A DNA stretch of 46,577 nt from a virus, in IMG/VR virus record IMGVR_UViG_3300031840_000709, positions 1 to 46,577 of that record; one strand, given 5' to 3'. Position 1 is the stretch's first letter. Each line of letters begins with the position of its first letter. The notes beneath the pieces were generated by a model. The model was not told the origin of the DNA, made no database searches, and was given only the letters and a program-made list of their open reading frames with translations. The position numbers and the translations under genes are program-made. This document shows, piece after piece, positions 3,030-28,396 of this stretch.

Positions 3030-4304
3030 TTATTCGTCGATTGCGACGATTCTTTCGTTGGTCTGGAAATAAGGGCGCTTCGCGCATCGCGTTGTTGTCA
3101 TCCACATGCGCTGACACTTGCTAGCTTTGGGCTTGGGTGCTTCCATGTCTGTCAAGATGATGTGCCCGTCGAACTTGCGCGCGTTGACATAGTCAGTGGG
3201 CGCGTTGAAGCACGTGCCGCCGTACATGTAGCGCTTCTGTGGGTGCGTCTGTCCCTTCTTCCACTCGAAGACGTTGGACTCTGACACTTGAGTATCGAAC
3301 GGCACAACCGTGAACGTGGCGATGTCCGCTAGCTTGTTCAGTTCTGCGTAGAAAGCCGCGAGCATAGAATCGGACACCGAACCTGACTGGTCGATGCTGA
3401 CCGCAATATTGGCGGTGCGGTTGACCTTGCGCCCTGGGTGGACATAGGCGTAGCGACGATTGAGGCGCTTGGGGGTGCTGCGCTTGCTAGCACGCTGTGA
3501 GGTCTTGACAAAATAACGCATGACCTTGCGCCAGTCGACGGTCGAAGTGACACGCTCCATGATCTCCTTGCGACAAGAGGCCGAAACAGAACCCCAACCC
3601 TTGCTAGCAGACTCTTGCGCGGCGTCTTTCACCGCCTCCTTCAATCGCTCCTTCGCGATGTCTACCGCTTGCTGGGCTGCTTCGTTCGCTTCGCCTTGGT
3701 TCCACTCATCGTGGGAATCAAATTGACCAGCAGCGTCAGGGTCAAACGTGCCAGACCCACCAGACCCACCAGACCCACCAGAACCATCGCCGCTGTCGCC
3801 ATCTTCTCCATTAGCATTGTTCTCCTGGTCCTCCATCTTCTGGAGGAGCTTGTCATAGTACCATTCGGCGGTCATGTCACCGGGCATGTCCTCGAACATC
3901 TTGCCGCCAGGGATACAACAGTTCTCGGGCAGGTTGGCTGCGCCGATGTGGTAGTTGATTGAGAGGTCAGCGGCGATGTTCCAGATCTTGAACTTCTGCC
4001 GCTGCTCTGGGGTTGGCTGCCCGTGCATGGCACCGGCTAGCTCGTCAGGCAGACGCCCGGTCACATGCTCAAAGACGAGGTGATAGAACTCGTGTACCAG
4101 CACGCCAGTGCGCTGCTCGTCAGTGAGCCCTGCAAAAAATGCAGGGTTGTAAATCATTTCAAAGTAGCCATGCTCGTCGACGCGGACACCAGCAGTAGGC
4201 ACTGCGGTGCTGGCCTTCTTCTCGATGCGACGCGAGAGCGCGGCGAAGAAGGGCTCTGCTTGAAGCAGGCGGAACACATGGTCATTGAGATTGAAGTCGG
4301 ACAT
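3030..4304 (-). CDS. VWA-domain protein with N-terminal HExxH metallopeptidase-like domain
   Basis: A 424-aa protein of the type that pairs with MoxR AAA ATPases (DUF2201-like). Residues 1-150 carry GVLVHEFYHLVFEH, an HExxH zinc motif at 71-75. A Gly/Ser linker (about 174-185) is encoded by a 9-bp tandem repeat. The C-terminal von Willebrand A domain has the MIDAS motif DQSGS at 305-309. By analogy with MoxR-VWA pairs, the ATPase encoded upstream probably remodels a target chosen by this protein. The start at 4304 was chosen from GGAGGACGCA upstream and the promoter at 4336-4363. The frame stays open further upstream, but that region contains the promoter. The 248-bp gap before it holds nothing else that I can support. 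Confidence 0.85.
   Translation of the reverse strand: MSDFNLNDHVFRLLQAEPFFAALSRRIEKKASTAVPTAGVRVDEHGYFEMIYNPAFFAGLTDEQRTGVLVHEFYHLVFEHVTGRLPDELAGAMHGQPTPEQRQKFKIWNIAADLSINYHIGAANLPENCCIPGGKMFEDMPGDMTAEWYYDKLLQKMEDQENNANGEDGDSGDGSGGSGGSGGSGTFDPDAAGQFDSHDEWNQGEANEAAQQAVDIAKERLKEAVKDAAQESASKGWGSVSASCRKEIMERVTSTVDWRKVMRYFVKTSQRASKRSTPKRLNRRYAYVHPGRKVNRTANIAVSIDQSGSVSDSMLAAFYAELNKLADIATFTVVPFDTQVSESNVFEWKKGQTHPQKRYMYGGTCFNAPTDYVNARKFDGHIILTDMEAPKPKASKCQRMWMTTTRCAKRPYFQTNERIVAIDE
3751..3786 (-). repeat. 9-bp tandem repeat encoding a Gly-Gly-Ser linker
   Basis: Four copies of a 9-bp unit (plus-strand CCAGACCCA, the last copy with one change) inside the VWA gene. They encode GSG/GGS repeats between the two domains. 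Copy number could vary by slippage. Confidence 0.85.
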
Positions 4305-4335
4305 TGCGTCCTCCGTCGTCATCGGGTACATAAGT

Positions 4336-4363
4336 AATGTAGGAACAGAACCTACGGAGTAAA
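4336..4363 (-). promoter_or_regulatory. Promoter, 16-bp spacer
   Basis: TTTACT-N16-TACATT, GTTCC before the -10. It is upstream of the VWA gene, so the VWA gene and the ATPase gene each have their own promoter. Confidence 0.7.
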
Positions 4364-4552
4364 GACAAAGTGAGCAGCGAGGGTCGTTTTCTAGCAGAGC
4401 GACCGTGCTATCCTGTTTTTTCCCTTTTATTGTCGTGCAGTTACAGGCAAACTGAGACTTACAATGTATTGGCTCCTCGTCGCTGCTCTGAGCCCTAGTC
4501 AATCTATAATATCGAGGCATCTAATGGCCATGCCTCCCTGCGCCTTCATGGG

Positions 4553-5608
4553 CTACTTGCCCGTGAGAATAGTCACCAGCTTGTTACCAACCGTCTCGCC
4601 GTTGTCGGCCTCGGTCTTGTGGAAGCGGGTAACGTTGTCCACGTTGCCGGTACCGAGAGCCTTCCAGAGCTTCATCACAGCCTCGGAGGGCAGTGACACG
4701 AAGTAGTTGGCAAGGTTCTTGCACTGGTCATCGTTCAGTTCATTGGCGAAGACCTCGCTGGCCTCCATCTTCTCGATGAGCGCGCAGTGCTCATTGATGT
4801 TGAAGCTAGTGGTCTTGTCGACTTGACCTTCGTCAAGGATCATCTCGACCGTAACCTGACGCTCATAGTTCTTCACGAAGTCGTTGAAGGACACCGCAGC
4901 CTCGAAGCCGACGAAGCCGGTAGCGAGGTGGAAGATGGCCGGGTTGTGGTCCTCGCCGAGCATGTCAGCGGACTCCAGGCAATCGTTCAGGCGCTTCCAG
5001 CTACGGCGCGAAGGGTAAACCTTGTTAGGCTCGAAGTCCTCGCCATGCTCCAGGTGAGAACGGTTCTGATTGATGAAGTCCCAGACAACATCGGCCACAT
5101 GACCCTTGGCCCAGTCGAGCCAGTCCTCGGTTGAAGGCTCGACGTCAAAGACGGTCCAGCGGTCAAGTTCTGCCGGGTCCATCTCGCCTACCTGATACTG
5201 TGACCCGTGCTCGCCACCGTTGACGGCAGCGATAACGACGGTATCGGGGTGGAGGTGGTTGCCGAAGATCTTGCGAGAGTCGGTCAACTCGAAGATACCC
5301 TGACGGACCTCGGGAATGGCGCGATCGACCTCATCGAGAAAGAGCAGCACAGCGCGCTTACACGAGTCGTCCAGCCAGTCAGGCGGGCAGAAGCTAGTCA
5401 CGTCGCCATCGGTGCGAGGCAGACCAACGAGATCGCCCTCGGTCATTTGTGACGCGCGGCGCTCGACGACGGGGAGACCCATGTCGTTGGCAATCTGGTA
5501 GACAAGCTCGGACTTGCCGACACCGTGACGACCACGGAGCATGAGGGGCTTACGCACATTGAGAACGTGCGGGGCGATGGAAACAAAAGTCTTGAAATCG
5601 ATAGCCAT
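4553..5608 (-). CDS. MoxR-type AAA+ ATPase
   Basis: A 351-aa ATPase. Walker A is GRHGVGKS (residues 26-33) and Walker B is LLFLDEVD (88-95). A sensor-like AAVNGGEHGSQYQVGEMDPA segment and DRW follow, as in MoxR/CbbQ proteins. It lies directly upstream of the VWA gene, the conserved MoxR-VWA arrangement of chaperone-like pairs that remodel or activate other proteins. GGAGTAACTATC precedes the ATG, with a promoter at 5652-5679. The ATPase and VWA assignments are clear, but the target in this phage is unknown. Confidence 0.9.
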   Translation of the reverse strand: MAIDFKTFVSIAPHVLNVRKPLMLRGRHGVGKSELVYQIANDMGLPVVERRASQMTEGDLVGLPRTDGDVTSFCPPDWLDDSCKRAVLLFLDEVDRAIPEVRQGIFELTDSRKIFGNHLHPDTVVIAAVNGGEHGSQYQVGEMDPAELDRWTVFDVEPSTEDWLDWAKGHVADVVWDFINQNRSHLEHGEDFEPNKVYPSRRSWKRLNDCLESADMLGEDHNPAIFHLATGFVGFEAAVSFNDFVKNYERQVTVEMILDEGQVDKTTSFNINEHCALIEKMEASEVFANELNDDQCKNLANYFVSLPSEAVMKLWKALGTGNVDNVTRFHKTEADNGETVGNKLVTILTGK

Positions 5609-6467: not shown

Positions 6468-6771
6468 TCTCTTCCTCGATCCTTTTGGAGTGCTTGCACT
6501 TCTTGCGGAAGCCGAAACCAGGACAAGAGCACTTGTACTTGCCTCCGATCTTCGTCACCGTGTAGCGGTTACCGTTGGAACCCTCGACCATCCAGCGATC
6601 CTTCTGCGAGACTTTTAGCTGTGCGCTAGGGTCATGGACCATGTACAAGTGCAGCGTCTCCATCGTCGTATCCGGGGGGACTTCAACGCACACGCCGCCG
6701 ATGGCGTAGAGCTTGTCACCGTTGCGCCACAGTCCAGGGCGCATGGGTGCTTTGACTGGCCAATCAGGCAT
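6454..6771 (-). CDS. SWIM-type zinc-finger protein
   Basis: A 105-aa protein whose C terminus has KCSCPGFGFRKKCKHSKRIE, matching the CxCx(n)CxH SWIM zinc-finger pattern (usually DNA- or protein-binding). It is preceded by a strand-rich region with GNRYTVTKIGGKY. The ATG overlaps the upstream stop as TGATG. It is the last full-size gene of the VGDLV array operon, which may mean it works with those proteins (inference). Confidence 0.75.
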   Translation of the reverse strand: MPDWPVKAPMRPGLWRNGDKLYAIGGVCVEVPPDTTMETLHLYMVHDPSAQLKVSQKDRWMVEGSNGNRYTVTKIGGKYKCSCPGFGFRKKCKHSKRIEEENEKV

Positions 6772-7007
6772 CAAACGATCTCGTAATAGTTGGAGGGTGC
6801 CCAGTGCGTATGGTTAGGCTGCTCTGTCACTTCCCAGAGCTTGAGGCAGACCTCGTGTGTGTACAGTGGATTACCTCGGTACCACTCGTAGCCGATCGGC
6901 TCTGATACGTCCATCACCATGAAGACCTCTGGGCCTGGATGGTCAACGCTATACTTCACCGAGCGAACCAGATCGCCTACTTCAACTTTGTGGATCGGCT
7001 TCTGCAC
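6771..7007 (-). CDS. VGDLV-family small protein, GTG start
   Basis: A 78-aa protein, MQKPIHKVEVGDLVRSVKYS, then VFMVMDVSEPIG, ending in NYYEIV. The GTG at 7007 follows GGAGG by 9 bases. That ribosome site lies inside the last codons of the upstream paralog (26-bp overlap). This member has a five-residue longer N terminus than its array neighbours. Confidence 0.75.
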   Translation of the reverse strand: MQKPIHKVEVGDLVRSVKYSVDHPGPEVFMVMDVSEPIGYEWYRGNPLYTHEVCLKLWEVTEQPNHTHWAPSNYYEIV

Positions 7008-7176
7008 TGCTGATTACCTCCGTGCATCGCATGAGCGTACGCTTGGTTATCCAAGTTGGGTTGTTAAAGTGAACTTCCTCATTAATGAATGTAAGAGCAG
7101 AACCGGCAGGAGTAAACCCCAAAATAACACCAGTGTATCCCGTCTCAGTAAACCTAATTAAATCACCGACTTTCAC
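6982..7176 (-). CDS. VGDLV-family small protein, array member, GTG start
   Basis: A 64-aa protein starting MKVGDLIRFTETGYTGVILG, ending in VISSAEADPQS. The GTG at 7176 lies inside the upstream gene's end with the standard 14-bp overlap, 7 bases after GGAG. Confidence 0.8.
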   Translation of the reverse strand: MKVGDLIRFTETGYTGVILGFTPAGSALTFINEEVHFNNPTWITKRTLMRCTEVISSAEADPQS

Positions 7177-7348
7177 TGACAATCTCCAACTCTTCAAGGC
7201 CAAAACAAAGCTGGCCACCCTCTGGAAAGCTGACCTCTACCACCCTGTTGCCTTGAACCAGAGTGACAAGGCCGAGCTTGCCGGAGTAGCCTCGACGCCA
7301 CATGCTAACGCGCGCTTCTTTGACCGCAACTAGATCACCTACTCGCAC
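7163..7348 (-). CDS. VGDLV-family small protein, array member, GTG start
   Basis: A 61-aa protein starting MRVGDLVAVKEARV, with KLGLVTLVQG and VVEVSFPEGG strands, ending LEELEIVSESR. The final codons supply the GGAG ribosome site and start region of the next paralog (14-bp overlap at both ends). Confidence 0.8.
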   Translation of the reverse strand: MRVGDLVAVKEARVSMWRRGYSGKLGLVTLVQGNRVVEVSFPEGGQLCFGLEELEIVSESR

Positions 7349-7505
7349 TGATTATCTCCAACTGGCTCTGATACATGTCGACCTCACCGTTTGGCCACTG
7401 GACTGTAAAACGCTTGTCCAGGCTAGTAGTCCTCAAGATTTTGGCTACGATGCCCACGCCGTCTGTTTCCCAGCCCTTTTGCACAACCAAATCACCGACT
7501 TGCAC
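7335..7505 (-). CDS. VGDLV-family small protein, array member, GTG start
   Basis: A 56-aa protein starting MQVGDLVVQKGWETDG, then VGIVAKIL and RFTVQWPNGEVD, ending QLEIISASR. It fills a 170-bp hole between two other array members and keeps the same 14-bp overlaps on both sides, which is good evidence that it is real despite its size. Confidence 0.8.
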   Translation of the reverse strand: MQVGDLVVQKGWETDGVGIVAKILRTTSLDKRFTVQWPNGEVDMYQSQLEIISASR

Positions 7506-7677
7506 TGACGACCTCCAGCATGCTGTTCGCTTCTAGCGTCGGTCCCCCGCATGTGATCGGGTAGTCGGGAGCGTAAGATGTCCACTGAACCATGCAGTGC
7601 ACGCCCAGGCTCTTTGTCACTAGGCCGATGCCCAGCGCAGGAATCTCTTTGTGTTTCACCAAGTTACCGACCTGCAC
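7492..7677 (-). CDS. VGDLV-family small protein, array member, GTG start
   Basis: A 61-aa protein starting MQVGNLVKHKEIPALGIGLV, then VHCMVQWTSY, ending MLEVVSASR. VGDLV is VGNLV here because the overlapping stop codon of the upstream gene is TAA rather than TGA, so the shared bases fix the Asp/Asn choice. Confidence 0.8.
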   Translation of the reverse strand: MQVGNLVKHKEIPALGIGLVTKSLGVHCMVQWTSYAPDYPITCGGPTLEANSMLEVVSASR

Positions 7678-7888
7678 TGACAACCTCCAAGTATTTGCGG
7701 GTGAACCACCATGGTTTGCCATGTTGCTGCTGTGAGGCAGATAGGTTGGGGCCTATGGGCTGCACAACACACTCGATGCCAAGTGTCTTAACCACCAGCG
7801 CTAGCTGGCCAGCAGCCTGGGTGTTGGGGTAGTCCTCGCTAATCCTCACGAGACTGCCAACTGTTGGTTTTTGCGGTTTCTGTTTCAT
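7664..7888 (-). CDS. VGDLV-family small protein, array member
   Basis: A 74-aa protein, MKQKPQKPTVGSLVRIS, then LALVVKTLGIECVVQ, ending YLEVVSAGR. It has an ATG start with no visible ribosome site. Instead, a promoter -10 (TACATT) ends exactly six bases before the ATG, which predicts a leaderless transcript. It starts the four-overlap run that continues to 6982. Confidence 0.8.
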   Translation of the reverse strand: MKQKPQKPTVGSLVRISEDYPNTQAAGQLALVVKTLGIECVVQPIGPNLSASQQQHGKPWWFTRKYLEVVSAGR

Positions 7889-7890
7889 GG

Positions 7891-8133
7891 TTAGAATGTA
7901 GGAACATCAGGCGAGTTGACAACCTTCAACTCATTCAAAGACATTGGGTGTAGGCCGTTTTGGACCTGGCCAGCGCTGGGCGCGTCGCGGCCCTTGCCTT
8001 CAAAGCCGGGGTAATGAACCAGCGCGGAGTCAATCCGTTCATCGATGATCCCGTAAAGCTGTGTGACGATACCAAAACGGTCGCGGTACATCGCGCACGA
8101 ACCGACATACTTGACTAGATCACCGACCTGCAC
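7891..8133 (-). CDS. VGDLV-family small protein, GTG start
   Basis: An 80-aa protein starting MQVGDLVKYVGSCAMYRD, then FGIVTQLYG and SALVHYPGFEG, ending NSPDVPTF. The C terminus differs from the usual SAGR tail, and the next gene does not overlap it but has its own promoter inside this gene's last codons. It overlaps the upstream paralog by 14 bp. Confidence 0.8.
   Translation of the reverse strand: MQVGDLVKYVGSCAMYRDRFGIVTQLYGIIDERIDSALVHYPGFEGKGRDAPSAGQVQNGLHPMSLNELKVVNSPDVPTF
7895..7922 (-). promoter_or_regulatory. Promoter, 16-bp spacer, abutting a start codon
   Basis: TTGTCA-N16-TACATT, GTTCC before the -10, then six bases and the ATG at 7888. It lies inside the 3' end of the upstream gene. 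Confidence 0.65.
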
Positions 8134-8350
8134 TGATAATCTCCAGGGTGCTGGGCTTCACGCTGAGCGTGTGCTTGTAATCGAACTGGGGGAAGTAAAC
8201 CACCGCAGACAACTGGTCATAAGTAAACGAGACAACGATGCCTGTCTCGTCTTTGATCCAGTGAGACATGGGCTTCATGCAGCCAGTCTTCGTGTTGTAT
8301 CCGCTGCTGCTTGGTTGAAAGTGGCAGCGTACCAAGTCGCCTACCTGCAT
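8120..8350 (-). CDS. VGDLV-family small protein, head of array
   Basis: A 76-aa protein starting MQVGDLVRCHFQPSSSG, then TGIVVSFTYDQLSAVVYFP, ending STLEIISAGR. It has an ATG start with GGAGGACACC upstream and a promoter at 8373-8400. It is the first gene of the array and the only array member with a normal leader. Confidence 0.85.
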   Translation of the reverse strand: MQVGDLVRCHFQPSSSGYNTKTGCMKPMSHWIKDETGIVVSFTYDQLSAVVYFPQFDYKHTLSVKPSTLEIISAGR

Positions 8351-8876: not shown

Positions 8877-9089
8877 CTAGCTGATAACTTGCAGATCCTC
8901 GATCTCCATCGAGTCCCAATCTGGGCGATCAGGCCACTGAACCCACATCGACGGGAGCGCGCCGCCCTTCTGGAAGCATGCTGTGGAAGGCTCCTCAACC
9001 ACGATGCCAACGGCATCAGGAGGAATCTCGCCATCCCAGACCAAGCCACTCCCGCCTTCTCGAATCTTAACCAAATCACCTACTTTCAT
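8877..9089 (-). CDS. VGDLV-family small protein
   Basis: A 70-aa protein starting MKVGDLVKIREGGSGLVW, then VGIVVEEP and MWVQWPDRPDWD, ending DLQVIS. The ATG overlaps the previous stop as ATGA. Confidence 0.8.
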   Translation of the reverse strand: MKVGDLVKIREGGSGLVWDGEIPPDAVGIVVEEPSTACFQKGGALPSMWVQWPDRPDWDSMEIEDLQVIS

Positions 9090-11695: not shown

Positions 11696-11724
11696 AGTAT
11701 AGTAACGCTATGGTCTGTTGACAA
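11696..11724 (-). promoter_or_regulatory. Promoter, 17-bp spacer
   Basis: TTGTCA-N17-TATACT, GTTAC before the -10. It partly overlaps the 3' end of the upstream VGDLV gene. Confidence 0.6.
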
Positions 11725-11923
11725 GTGTGACCCACCCTTTTTGCAGGGCGATGGCGTCCATTTCAACCGGACCATCGTGGTCATTCCATAGTACGGTCCA
11801 CGTTTGTATCTCGTTGTCAGGCCCATACCATGCTGGACCCAAGACAAGCGCAACTTGCGTGGAGCCGTCGGCCATGGTGATTAAATCACCAGCCTTCAAA
11901 GAGAGTTTCTTGCCACTCTTCAT
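11708..11923 (-). CDS. VGDLV-family small protein (AGDLITM variant)
   Basis: A 71-aa protein, MKSGKKLSLKAGDLITMADG, then VALVLGPAWYG and TWTVLWNDHDG, ending WVTLVNRP. It overlaps its upstream paralog by 38 bp, the largest overlap within the family. Confidence 0.75.
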   Translation of the reverse strand: MKSGKKLSLKAGDLITMADGSTQVALVLGPAWYGPDNEIQTWTVLWNDHDGPVEMDAIALQKGWVTLVNRP

Positions 11924-17240: not shown

Positions 17241-17434
17241 CTTGCGTATTTAATCTCTTTTCTGTAAAGCATCTCTGGTTGTTCGTAGCCTGTAAATAAA
17301 ACAAAGTATACTGGGCGATCTCGGAACTTGTCATATTCTATATTAATGACAACGCCAACTAATTTTTTAAATTCTCTTAGTGCTAGTATTCTATTCCCAT
17401 AGTTTGAAAGCGTGACAAGATCACCTACTTTCAC
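17237..17434 (-). CDS. VGDLV-family small protein, GTG start, predicted leaderless
   Basis: A 65-aa protein starting MKVGDLVTLSNYGNRILALR, then LVGVVINIEYD and VYFVLFTGYE. The promoter -10 TATATT is separated from the GTG by exactly AAATAA. It is translationally coupled to the YkuK-like gene. Confidence 0.8.
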   Translation of the reverse strand: MKVGDLVTLSNYGNRILALREFKKLVGVVINIEYDKFRDRPVYFVLFTGYEQPEMLYRKEIKYAR

Positions 17435-20196: not shown

Positions 20197-20864
20197 TCTT
20201 TATTCTCCGCAAGTTTCTGAAATGTTTTGCTATGTTGTTCCATTACTTTATGTGCTGCTTTGACAGCGGCAGATTCAACTTGATCGACCATCTTGTTTAT
20301 TTCTTTCTGTTTTGTGATTTTCTTCAACCACTCAATCTGTTCTTCAACTCTTTCTGGTGTGTTGCCGCCATCGTCAAATATTCCGCAATCACAAGCGTGC
20401 CAATCTTTGTGCCATTTACATTCTGGCGGGTGTTCTTGTTTTCGGTAAAAGTCAGGATGATCAATCTGTGCGTAACCATCTAAAGTTTTCATTTCTAAAT
20501 GCAGGTCTTCATAGTTCTCAACATAAGCGCCACTGGTTCGTCCATCCAATCGGTTTAGAAGATTGATTGATGCTTCGCCTGCCCATAGATCATCGTCTTT
20601 CCACCCGAGAAACTCTCTTACTTCTGGGAGTTCCTTGGTGATTTTAATAATGGTATCGTCTAAATCTCTAATCTCATCTGCTGCTCTGCGATTGAGTGAT
20701 TTCAAGCGAATGATTTCTTTTTTTAACTCTCGCTGATAATCAAGTCGCTCTTGTGGAACGCCAGTATCAAGAAAATTATGAACTGATAACTCTCGCTGTA
20801 GTTCTGTATTCTCTTTTTTGAGTTCTTCTACTTGCTTTTTGAGTTCTTTGATTTCGTCAGTCAT
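20193..20864 (-). CDS. Coiled-coil protein with a Cys/His cluster
   Basis: A 223-aa protein. Residues 1-85 form a long coiled coil (MTDEIKELKKQVEELKKENT). A middle Cys/His-rich segment, ECKWHKDWHACDCGIFDDGG, may bind zinc, and a second helical region closes the protein. No family recognised. The start at 20864 was chosen from GGAGAAAGAAA upstream. It overlaps the preceding VGDLV-like gene by 8 bp. Confidence 0.65.
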   Translation of the reverse strand: MTDEIKELKKQVEELKKENTELQRELSVHNFLDTGVPQERLDYQRELKKEIIRLKSLNRRAADEIRDLDDTIIKITKELPEVREFLGWKDDDLWAGEASINLLNRLDGRTSGAYVENYEDLHLEMKTLDGYAQIDHPDFYRKQEHPPECKWHKDWHACDCGIFDDGGNTPERVEEQIEWLKKITKQKEINKMVDQVESAAVKAAHKVMEQHSKTFQKLAENKE

Positions 20865-21072
20865 TTTCTTTCTCCACAAACTCCCACTCTTCTGGGGAAT
20901 AAACAATAAAATCTACTTTTCCGTTTGCTCTGGATACTTTCGTATATCCACCCGACTCTTCATAAATCACTTTTACAATTTCACCGGCACAGAACTTATG
21001 GTTGTCATAGATGACATAGGGAGCTTCTGTTCTTCGGAGTAATTGCCCCTTGTTTTGTTCACCGACTTTCAC
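20857..21072 (-). CDS. VGDLV-related protein, GTG start, 14-bp junction
   Basis: A 71-aa protein starting MKVGEQNKGQLLRRTEAPYV, then AGEIVKVIYEESGGYTKVSR and FIVYSPEEWEFVEK. It joins its upstream paralog by the same 14-bp overlap as the main array 13 kb away, although its own VGDLV motif is degenerate (VGEQN) and a second core, AGEIVKV, appears further in. Confidence 0.65.
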   Translation of the reverse strand: MKVGEQNKGQLLRRTEAPYVIYDNHKFCAGEIVKVIYEESGGYTKVSRANGKVDFIVYSPEEWEFVEKEND

Positions 21073-21229
21073 TGATCACCTCAAAATCTTTAATGGCGTG
21101 TGCACCATTTGCATGATACTCTTTTGCGTGAAGGCGGATCCACTGCCCCTGCTTCCAGGCAACCAAATAAACCTTACCAATATGCTTTGTTGTTGGACAA
21201 CGAAATTTAACCAAATCACCGACTTTCAT
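21059..21229 (-). CDS. VGDLV-family small protein, predicted leaderless
   Basis: A 56-aa protein starting MKVGDLVKFRCPTTKHIGKV, then YLVAWKQGQWIRL, ending DFEVISESR. The promoter -10 TATAAT is followed by exactly AATATT before the ATG. Confidence 0.75.
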   Translation of the reverse strand: MKVGDLVKFRCPTTKHIGKVYLVAWKQGQWIRLHAKEYHANGAHAIKDFEVISESR

Positions 21230-21235
21230 AATATT

Positions 21236-21263
21236 ATTATAAGCACACCTAAATGAGAGTAAA
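21236..21263 (-). promoter_or_regulatory. Promoter, 16-bp spacer, abutting a start codon
   Basis: TTTACT-N16-TATAAT, GTGCT before the -10, six bases before the ATG at 21229. Confidence 0.7.
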
Positions 21264-21330
21264 GCGCTCTCCTTAAAAAATGTTAGGCAACCAGACCACC
21301 TAACTGACTGTTTCCAGTCCCACCCGCAGA

Positions 21331-21474
21331 TTAGCAATCATGGAGTTTATCCCTCTCCCGCTTCATCCTTACAATCGGGGTAACTTCATTTGAAGGAGTG
21401 GCAGGATTTTCACCTGCAAGTGACCAAGTATTCCCTTTTAAGACTCTTATTCCTTGGTCCGGGTCGTATATCAT
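21331..21474 (-). CDS. Possible small hydrophilic protein
   Basis: A 47-aa frame starting MIYDPDQGIRVLKGNTWSLA and ending MKRERDKLHDC. No good ribosome site is seen. The same stretch can also form an 8-bp end-to-end pairing (AAGGAGTG with CACTCCTT), so a structured RNA is the alternative. It occupies the 300-bp gap between the tRNA 5' half and the VGDLV pair. Confidence 0.35.
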   Translation of the reverse strand: MIYDPDQGIRVLKGNTWSLAGENPATPSNEVTPIVRMKRERDKLHDC

Positions 21475-26833: not shown

Positions 26834-28396
26834 TTATTCCTCCACTATAGCATTTGTACTTGTAATCAGCGTTGATGCTGCTGATACTGAATTTTGTATT
26901 GCCGTTCTTGTTACTTTGGCGGGGTCAATGATGCCTGCCTCTAGCATGTCAGTCAGATTAGAATTCTTAAAATCCCATCCTTGGCCTTCGCTGCTCAACA
27001 CCTTATCGACAATTAGATCCGGGCTGTCTCCGCAATTGATCGCCATCTGTCTGATTGGTGCCATCAAAGATCTTCTTAATACTTCAGCGCCAATCTCTTG
27101 GTCTTCATTGTTACAATCAACTTCGAAGTCCATACATCGTAAAAGTGTTGTGCCTCCGCCAGGGACAATGCCCTCCTGTTGTGCAGAGCGCACTGCTTCG
27201 AGGGCGTCTTCGATTCGGTGTTTCTTCTCTATCATTTCAACTTCAGTTGGTGCACCGACTTTAATCACTGCGACACCAGAGGCTAGGCGTGTAATTCTTC
27301 TCTGTAGTACACGGCACTCTTCCATGCCTTCAGTCTGCTTGATCTCGCTCTTCAGAGCTTCGATGCGCTTCTCGACCTCTTCGTGATCGCATGAACCACC
27401 CATGATGGTAGTGCTCGACTTGTGGACTTCGACCTTCTTGCACATTCCAAAGTCAGAGAGCTTGATCTCTTCAATTGGCTTGCCAGAGGCTCTGTTGAAA
27501 AAGGCGGCTCCCGTAGCTGTACAAAGATCTTTCATGGTGTTGATTCTCTCATTCCCATACTCGGGAGCCTTGACCGCTGCGACCTTCATTGTTCCTCGCA
27601 CCGTGTTCATGATAAGAGCAGCGAGGGCCTGGCCTTCAACTTGTTCGGCCACAATAATTAGGGGGCGGCTTTCTCTCGCTGCTAATTCAAGAACGGGCAA
27701 GATCTTCTTGACCGCATCGATCTTATGATCTGTAACAAATATAAGCGCGTCATCGTACTCAATACAATTCTTTCTTTCGTTTGTGACAAACGCTTGTGCA
27801 AAATAACCAGAATTAAATCTAAAGCCCTCGACCAAATCAAGACTGGTCTCCATTGACTTTGCTTCTTCGATAAGGATTGAGCCTTCTTGGCCTACCTTGT
27901 CCACCGCAGAAGCGATTAGCTTGCCAATTTTCTCATCATTATTGGCAGAAATTGTGGCTACACTCTCTACATCCTCAACAGACTCCACAGGCCTGGAGAT
28001 GTCTTTGATTTTATCCACAATTTGTTCTAAAGCCAGATCCATACCGCGCTTAAGTTCAACTGGCGAAGCGCCTGCGATTAGATACTTCTGGCTGTTTTCG
28101 ATTATCTCTCTCGCTAACACCGTCGACGTTGTTGTGCCGTCGCCTGCCAGCGAGTTTGTCTCTGAAGCAACCTGCTTTAGAATTCTAGCGCCGGCGTTTT
28201 CGATTGGATCTTTCAAATCAACAAAGTTTGCGACAGTCACACCATCTTTGGTGATGATTGGATTGCCTTCTTTCTTCGCTAGAATAACATTCCGCCCCTT
28301 CGGGCCGAGTGTTACCGCGACGTTATCTGCTAACTTGTTGATACCATTAAGGATTTTTTGTTGTAAGTCTAGGTTACTAGCATAGACTTTTGTCAT
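26834..28396 (-). CDS. groEL: GroEL-type chaperonin
   Basis: A 520-aa group I chaperonin. The nucleotide-binding segments TLGPKGRNV (29-37), KDGVTV and GDGTTT (85-90), and GIVPGGGT near the C-terminal third, are intact. It lacks the Gly-Gly-Met tail of many GroELs and ends in AIVEE. It folds proteins, and phage copies are usually tied to capsid protein folding. A GroES-like partner is encoded at 40748, far away. GAGAGGT precedes the ATG, with a promoter at 28415-28442. Confidence 0.95.
   Translation of the reverse strand: MTKVYASNLDLQQKILNGINKLADNVAVTLGPKGRNVILAKKEGNPIITKDGVTVANFVDLKDPIENAGARILKQVASETNSLAGDGTTTSTVLAREIIENSQKYLIAGASPVELKRGMDLALEQIVDKIKDISRPVESVEDVESVATISANNDEKIGKLIASAVDKVGQEGSILIEEAKSMETSLDLVEGFRFNSGYFAQAFVTNERKNCIEYDDALIFVTDHKIDAVKKILPVLELAARESRPLIIVAEQVEGQALAALIMNTVRGTMKVAAVKAPEYGNERINTMKDLCTATGAAFFNRASGKPIEEIKLSDFGMCKKVEVHKSSTTIMGGSCDHEEVEKRIEALKSEIKQTEGMEECRVLQRRITRLASGVAVIKVGAPTEVEMIEKKHRIEDALEAVRSAQQEGIVPGGGTTLLRCMDFEVDCNNEDQEIGAEVLRRSLMAPIRQMAINCGDSPDLIVDKVLSSEGQGWDFKNSNLTDMLEAGIIDPAKVTRTAIQNSVSAASTLITSTNAIVEE

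Follow-up and report, generated by a model that had tools for sequence, protein, structure and literature searches.

The viral DNA studied here (IMG/VR record IMGVR_UViG_3300031840_000709, positions 1 to 46,577), a stretch of 46,577 nucleotides that we refer to as the window, carries on its minus strand a series of small genes in which one gene repeatedly ends inside the start of the next by exactly 14 bp. This arrangement raises the question of whether the boundary between these genes is itself a unit of genome rearrangement. A reading of the sequence alone had proposed that it is a reusable, recombining boundary. Our analysis leads us to conclude, with considerable confidence, that the genes form a cassette array built on a common joint and shuffled by short-homology recombination in uncultured marine T4-type phages. 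All of the data come from metagenomic assemblies, and no isolate is among them.

A repeated dual-coding joint in the window

An exact 14-bp overlap can be read from the sequence at all six junctions for which it had been claimed. Five of these, A/B (8120..8133), C/D (7664..7677), D/E (7492..7505), E/F (7335..7348) and F/G (7163..7176), lie in the main array, and the sixth, X/Y (21059..21072), is at a second site 13 kb away; all are on the minus strand, so that the higher coordinate is the start of the downstream gene and the lower the stop of the upstream one. The overlap consists of GTGCAGGTCGGTGA or a close variant of it, read as (S)-A-G-R-stop in one frame and as M-Q-V-G-D in the other. The upstream tails, in the order listed, are SAGR, SAGR, SASR, SASR, SESR and SESR, and thus of the S-A-G-R-stop type originally described. 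The downstream genes start with GTG followed by xVGD or xVGN, except at 21072, where xVGE departs from the proposed pattern. The upstream stop is created by the Gly-Asp (or Asn, Glu) codons of the next gene and, as predicted, falls within them in every case; it is TGA in five of the six junctions and TAA in the other (at 7664). A GGAG motif contributed by the upstream Leu-Glu codons lies just 5' of the start codon in five junctions, and the claim that it is general fails only at 21059, which has GAG alone.

Six copies of the core TCAGTGNNRGTNGGTRA are present in the window, whereas 60 simulated windows with matching trinucleotide composition contained none; its recurrence is not due to chance. 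The window copies of the 32-bp core (TGGAGNTNRTCAGTGnRRGTCGGTGATYTRGT) have a mean identity of 77%, and the gene bodies between the junctions are 46.6% identical in DNA, as compared with 45.9% for shuffled bodies. Because the joints are alike and the bodies are unrelated in DNA, short-homology recombination would be possible between any two joints.

The junction-linked genes do not constitute the single tandem array first described. They instead form two linked runs, A-B and C-D-E-F-G, since the end of B at 7891 does not reach into C, which begins at 7888. Cassette A (8120..8350, minus strand, as are all genes given here with coordinates in this form; 76 aa, MQVGDLV...LEIISAGR) has relatives at 40-48% in other phages, and cassette B (7891..8133; 80 aa) has lost the 3' junction that is kept in its homologue in locus L080 (VVNAAR). 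The second run is headed by cassette C (7664..7888; 74 aa), which has a non-junction start, and continues through D (7492..7677; 61 aa), E (7335..7505; 56 aa), F (7163..7348; 61 aa), for whose body no relative was detectable in the fetched loci, and G (6982..7176; 64 aa), the tail of which is no longer of the junction type. G shares a degenerate junction with a 26-bp overlap (7007/6982) with gene H (6771..7007; 78 aa), in which VGDLV is shifted seven residues from the start. A further VGDLV gene, Z (8877..9089; 70 aa), lies outside the run. At the second site, gene X (21059..21337) ends in ISESR and its likely start is internal, at MKVGDLVKFRC..., while gene Y (20857..21072; 71 aa) starts VKVGE and has weak SH3 matches in Pfam. 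A weaker seventh copy of the junction is found at 11899/11886, where a gene with a TTG start and AGD (11708..11899; MKAGDL) overlaps by 14 bp the gene ending at 11886, and there is a VGDLV start without overlap at 17434.

An AAA+ ATPase gene (4553..5608; phrog_1297, CobS-like by a phrog_249 match) provides an anchor for related loci. It forms a conserved pair with the gene at 3030-4520, the product of which is called an HNH endonuclease by PHROG (phrog_1314) and is perhaps a CobT/vWA partner, and the pair has arrays on its flanks in many relatives. The window also encodes a GroEL-like chaperonin (26834-28396; phrog_5725, E 6e-139).

The joint is widespread in T4-type phage records

A pattern scan of IMG/VR returned at least 119 stretches, which pooled with the window give 120 loci containing at least 726 junctions, with chains of up to 12 junctions among the matches listed. 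Across these junctions the conserved core is tgGAGgT.aTcAgTGaAAGTCGGTGATtTgGT, extending from -12 to +19 of the start codon. For a sample that does not depend on the junction, we fetched 80 loci by the neighboring ATPase and analyzed them together with the window. VGD genes, 526 in all, lie near the ATPase in 65 of these 81 loci, and the 14-bp overlap is present at 63% of their starts as against 4.5% of other starts. Among whole records the joint is found in 36 of 49, in up to 22 copies and always on one (coding) strand per record, the reversed control pattern giving 2 matches in total.

All 12 large array-bearing records (165-203 kb) contain a T4-type gp23 capsid protein (PF07068) above the cut-off. 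We infer from this that the window probably derives from a large T4-type phage genome of this kind; the gp23 result is that of the large records, not of the window itself. Searches of 50,697 GenBank phages with a consensus protein and the consensus core found no array, and cassette E and one other cassette had no credible phage match. In Salmonella phages such as Det7 there is a 19-bp match, but it was discarded as chance, being on the strand opposite its gene. The nearest GenBank relatives by gp23 are Mel-JY01, RM378, immuto and one uncultured record, and all four lack the junction even when one mismatch is allowed. In GTDB genomes, junctions occur in 7 stretches (L254-L260) from 4 marine MAGs, assigned to Halobacteriovorax, Flavobacteriales, Acidiferrobacteraceae and Peribacter. 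We infer that these stretches are probably phage contigs binned into the MAGs, in which case they might hint at hosts.

The DNA sequence of the joint is more uniform than the encoded proteins require. GTCGGTGAT is present at 61% of junctions and at 20-27% of VGD starts without overlap, as compared with 4% expected from codon usage. The Val codon at junctions is GTC rather than GTA in a ratio of 72:12, despite both being synonymous in both frames, and CGG, which results from the choice of GTC, is the least used of all Arg codons in these genomes (8%). These codon patterns fit homogenization by recombination. A Shine-Dalgarno motif is found at 79% of junctions versus 52% of other genes. We considered whether the SESR tail is functional and rejected the idea: an [EA][SG]R tail ends 76% of the cassettes that precede a junction and 7% of those that precede a non-VGD gene, which makes the tail a side effect of the joint.

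Cassettes are exchanged at the joint

The order of genes in the window, Z A B C D E F G H, is permuted in relatives, being C B G E D Z in L080 and L124, C E Z D G B in L119 and L123, and B Z E D Z H in L068. Cassette D therefore precedes E in the window and follows it in L080/L124, and in L080, L123 and L068 gene Z has a place within the array or at its end. The E block of L080 is 88% identical in DNA to that of the window, and this identity stops at both junctions. Across the arrays, 67% of 1,080 homology ends fall within -15..+25 of a junction (18% under the null) and 56% are at the same offset in both sequences (11% under the null). Exactly one cassette is spanned by 164 homology matches, at up to 96% identity. 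Cassettes that are at least 80% identical keep their neighbor in 55% of cases, as compared with 81% for other small genes.

Such a pattern might be left by survivor bias only, with illegitimate recombination occurring anywhere, gene-boundary products surviving, and the junctions resembling each other because the protein start (VGDLV) and end are conserved. This is how phage mosaicism has classically been viewed (for discussion see PMC3029335 and PMC2327257), and the frequent breaks at VGD starts that lack the overlap are in keeping with it. The other boundaries in the same region nevertheless behave differently. Among homology matches of at least 80% identity, the break rate per passage is 77% at junctions, 22% at 4-bp overlaps, 25% at 14-bp overlaps without the VGD core and 26% at other small-gene boundaries. 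Restricting the comparison to within 1 kb of a junction gives 0.77 versus 0.33 (95% CI of the difference 0.34-0.52, bootstrap over contigs), and other small-gene boundaries of the same region, including 4-bp ATGA overlaps, range from 0.18 to 0.39. Overlaps of 14 bp that lack the VGD core break at 0.245-0.29, like any other boundary.

Insertions and deletions between close relatives also tell against survivor bias. Clean indels in the arrays comprise one to several whole units and share 12-37 bp at their edges, whereas the five clean indels outside junctions have at most 8 bp in common. In 15 distinct indels the short allele is a chimera, corresponding to the first junction of the long allele upstream and to the second downstream, and in 12 of these the crossover interval is wholly within -12..+21; the other three give ambiguous or off-core estimates. 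L007, which is 99.5% identical to L005, lacks exactly one 176-bp unit. Several of these events trace to one group of related contigs, and whether they are gains or losses is not known. Observed genomes alone do not allow a recombination hotspot to be told apart completely from a survivor filter, although the same-region boundaries serve as a control; on this evidence we regard survivor bias alone as an improbable explanation.

Units are gained, lost, replaced and reordered in these arrays, with the switches in the joint. The sequence-only reading had looked for variation in array length with breakpoints in the junctions and would have been refuted by relatives carrying the genes only as fixed single copies; both order and length vary, and a reusable, recombining boundary is strongly supported. 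Its emphasis on the dual-coding junction has to be corrected in one respect, in that the overlap is not strictly needed. One partner junction in the L005/L007 event, in L005, has no dual-coding overlap, and VGD starts with a 4-bp in place of a 14-bp overlap break at a rate of 0.61 (few cases), from which it follows that the start segment (ATGAAAGTCGGTGATTTGGT) alone can suffice for exchange; this segment, more than the dual coding, may be the element that recombines.

Alternatively, the arrays could have grown by tandem duplication and divergence, the overlap being copied along with the gene, and could differ mainly by lineage-specific duplication and loss. All bodies do have a VGD start and an SH3-like fold in common, and in L157 genes 30 and 32 are cassettes 98% identical with one gene between them, the sole clear recent duplication within an array. 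Members of a tandemly duplicated array should, however, be each other's closest relatives, and this is not observed: only 8 within-locus paralogous pairs are present among 603 cassettes, body relatives are found in other phages, and the same cassette sits between different neighbors, in permuted order, in different phages. The initial suggestion that the junction amplifies the array accordingly receives little support; local amplification is rare, and the arrays change mainly by horizontal shuffling within a large pool of cassettes.

A further point against tandem duplication, which we consider very unlikely, is that unrelated genes carry the joint too. A small GIY-YIG-like gene ends in the joint (INESR type) in five phages (L124:2306-2567, L125:4735-4996, L126:4713-4974, L132:5903-6161 and L156:7459-7720), and 14-bp overlaps with a VGD gene are present at a ClpP-like gene (L153:5140-5761) and at MazG-like genes (L156:14141-14447 and L129:4415-4742). 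These genes were named by reading their sequences, not by family search. The start of the GIY-YIG-like gene also looks joint-derived in some phages (VKVDLWW, VKTSSWH). Going by its sequence, this gene may be a mobile passenger or a nuclease of the array.

Recombination machinery

The exchange of cassette-like units with a common boundary sequence is also what would be expected if a site-specific recombinase worked on the core, as an integron integrase does on attC. Neither tyrosine integrase (PF00589) nor serine resolvase (PF00239) was found in any of 13 records, with the controls matched in both searches. The crossover intervals moreover have no one position in common (for example, -5..+3 in one event and +5..+17 in another), and the core is largely explained by coding and ribosome-site functions. 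A recombinase of this kind is therefore highly implausible. All 12 large records have a RecA/UvsX-type recombinase, although none is encoded in the 46-kb window fragment itself, and a RecT-type annealing protein was detected in none of 13 records. Given variable crossovers, the lack of an integrase or resolvase and the presence of RecA/UvsX in all 12 large records, short-homology recombination fits best. In experiments with T4, microhomology of 6-10 bp is enough for amplification (PMC9391042), and the 12-37 bp shared at the indel edges are thus ample. We infer that exchange is driven by RecA/UvsX or an annealing pathway during recombination-dependent T4-type replication.

Misjoining of contigs at the ~30-bp repeats, conceivable because every record is metagenomic, can scarcely be credited, since the patterns repeat over many independent assemblies and pairs, the cassettes are intact ORFs under purifying selection, and repeats of 12-37 bp are, we infer, short relative to the reads.

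Cassette products are predicted to be small SH3-like barrels

Clustering at 50% identity sorts the 1,183 distinct genes that start at a junction into 739 groups. The pooled dN/dS of close pairs is 0.19, versus 1.24 for a frame-shifted control, and pN is below pS in 184 of 186 close pairs, a substitution pattern indicative of purifying selection on the cassette genes. An AlphaFold2 model of cassette E, built from an alignment of 103 members, is a five-stranded SH3-like barrel (pLDDT 91.9). Its closest fold is the KOW/SH3 domain of ribosomal protein eS4 (TM 0.75, best E 0.01). Profile matches in Pfam, PHROG and PDB are all weak and of the KOW, L24, NusG and PWWP types; no window cassette has a Pfam match above the cut-off, and the 103 members give weak matches only. 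On the strength of the predicted fold, with no binding data, the cassette products are SH3/KOW-like barrels of ~50-80 residues. The best structural matches of cassette E in BFVD (A0A516MB52, A0A516LC30, A0A516M778 and others) are small proteins of 20-34% identity with neighboring accessions, possibly representing arrays in one deposited set of viral genomes. The DNA-binding early protein MotB of T4 has a predicted N-terminal KOW domain (PMC7827196), and its likeness to the cassettes is a lead only.

Discussion

Successive small accessory genes are linked by a universal joint of ~32 bp (-12 to +19 of the start codon), which combines the ribosome-binding site, the xVGDLV start of one gene and, read in another frame, the stop of the gene before it. 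In the mechanism that we propose, any two joints, within one phage or between co-infecting phages, would recombine by short homology, with the result that whole genes could be deleted, inserted, replaced or reordered while both neighbors stayed in frame and kept a ribosome site. We infer in addition that there is translational coupling across the joint and that a variable repertoire aids host takeover or counter-defence. We lean slightly towards the broader interpretation that this is an integron-like system without a recombinase, common to a whole lineage of marine T4-type phages, in which continual recombination keeps the joint alike in DNA, exchange of single genes is always in frame and translated, and unrelated genes (GIY-YIG-like, MazG-like and ClpP-like) can be recruited.

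The closest precedent in kind is provided by the boundary (linker) sequences of lambdoid phages (HK620; Clark et al. 2001, cited in PMC2327257). As described there, recombination-proficient phages exchange modules by homologous recombination at short sequences at gene boundaries, and the corresponding features, a conserved short boundary sequence, a concentration of breakpoints and RecA/UvsX machinery, are all present here. In contrast to those linkers, a single joint here recurs at the majority of boundaries in extended series of very small genes and is itself dual-coding, with a fixed 14-bp overlap. What is exchanged is one gene at a time, out of a pool numbering several hundred at least, and the phages are marine and of the T4 type. 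The arrays resemble those of integrons in outcome, with ordered single-gene units, a common joint, gain, loss and reordering, and a large shared pool; they differ in that no integrase was found, there is no fixed crossover point and the joint is coding. T4-type replication and recombination also join short repeats in the segmental amplification and deletion of T4 (tifA, PMC9391042; Wu, Wu and Black 1991, cited there), but the repeats in that case are incidental ones of 6-10 bp, whereas here the joint is multiply repeated and preserves function. The cassette products share the five-stranded SH3-like barrel of the small KOW/SH3 domains of eS4, L24 and NusG and the predicted KOW domain of T4 MotB, but are stand-alone proteins of 50-80 aa with no significant sequence family and no nucleic-acid binding data. 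The principle of exchange at boundary sequences is known (lambdoid phages; the idea is discussed in PMC3029335). We did not find these arrays described in the open-access literature, and the universal dual-coding joint, the single-gene units and the scale appear undescribed in the literature searched.

These arrays bear on a dispute over the origin of phage mosaicism. Homologous exchange at short boundaries has been proposed, but the sequences were not found at most mosaic boundaries, and illegitimate recombination is hence usually assumed (PMC3029335). In the widespread phage lineage analyzed here the joint is plain, present in up to 22 copies per record and chimeric at 15 indels, and the boundary model becomes directly testable. 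The arrays indicate that a gene overlap can act as a modular connector that preserves both reading frames and ribosome sites, and they bring to light hundreds of small SH3-like phage proteins without known function.
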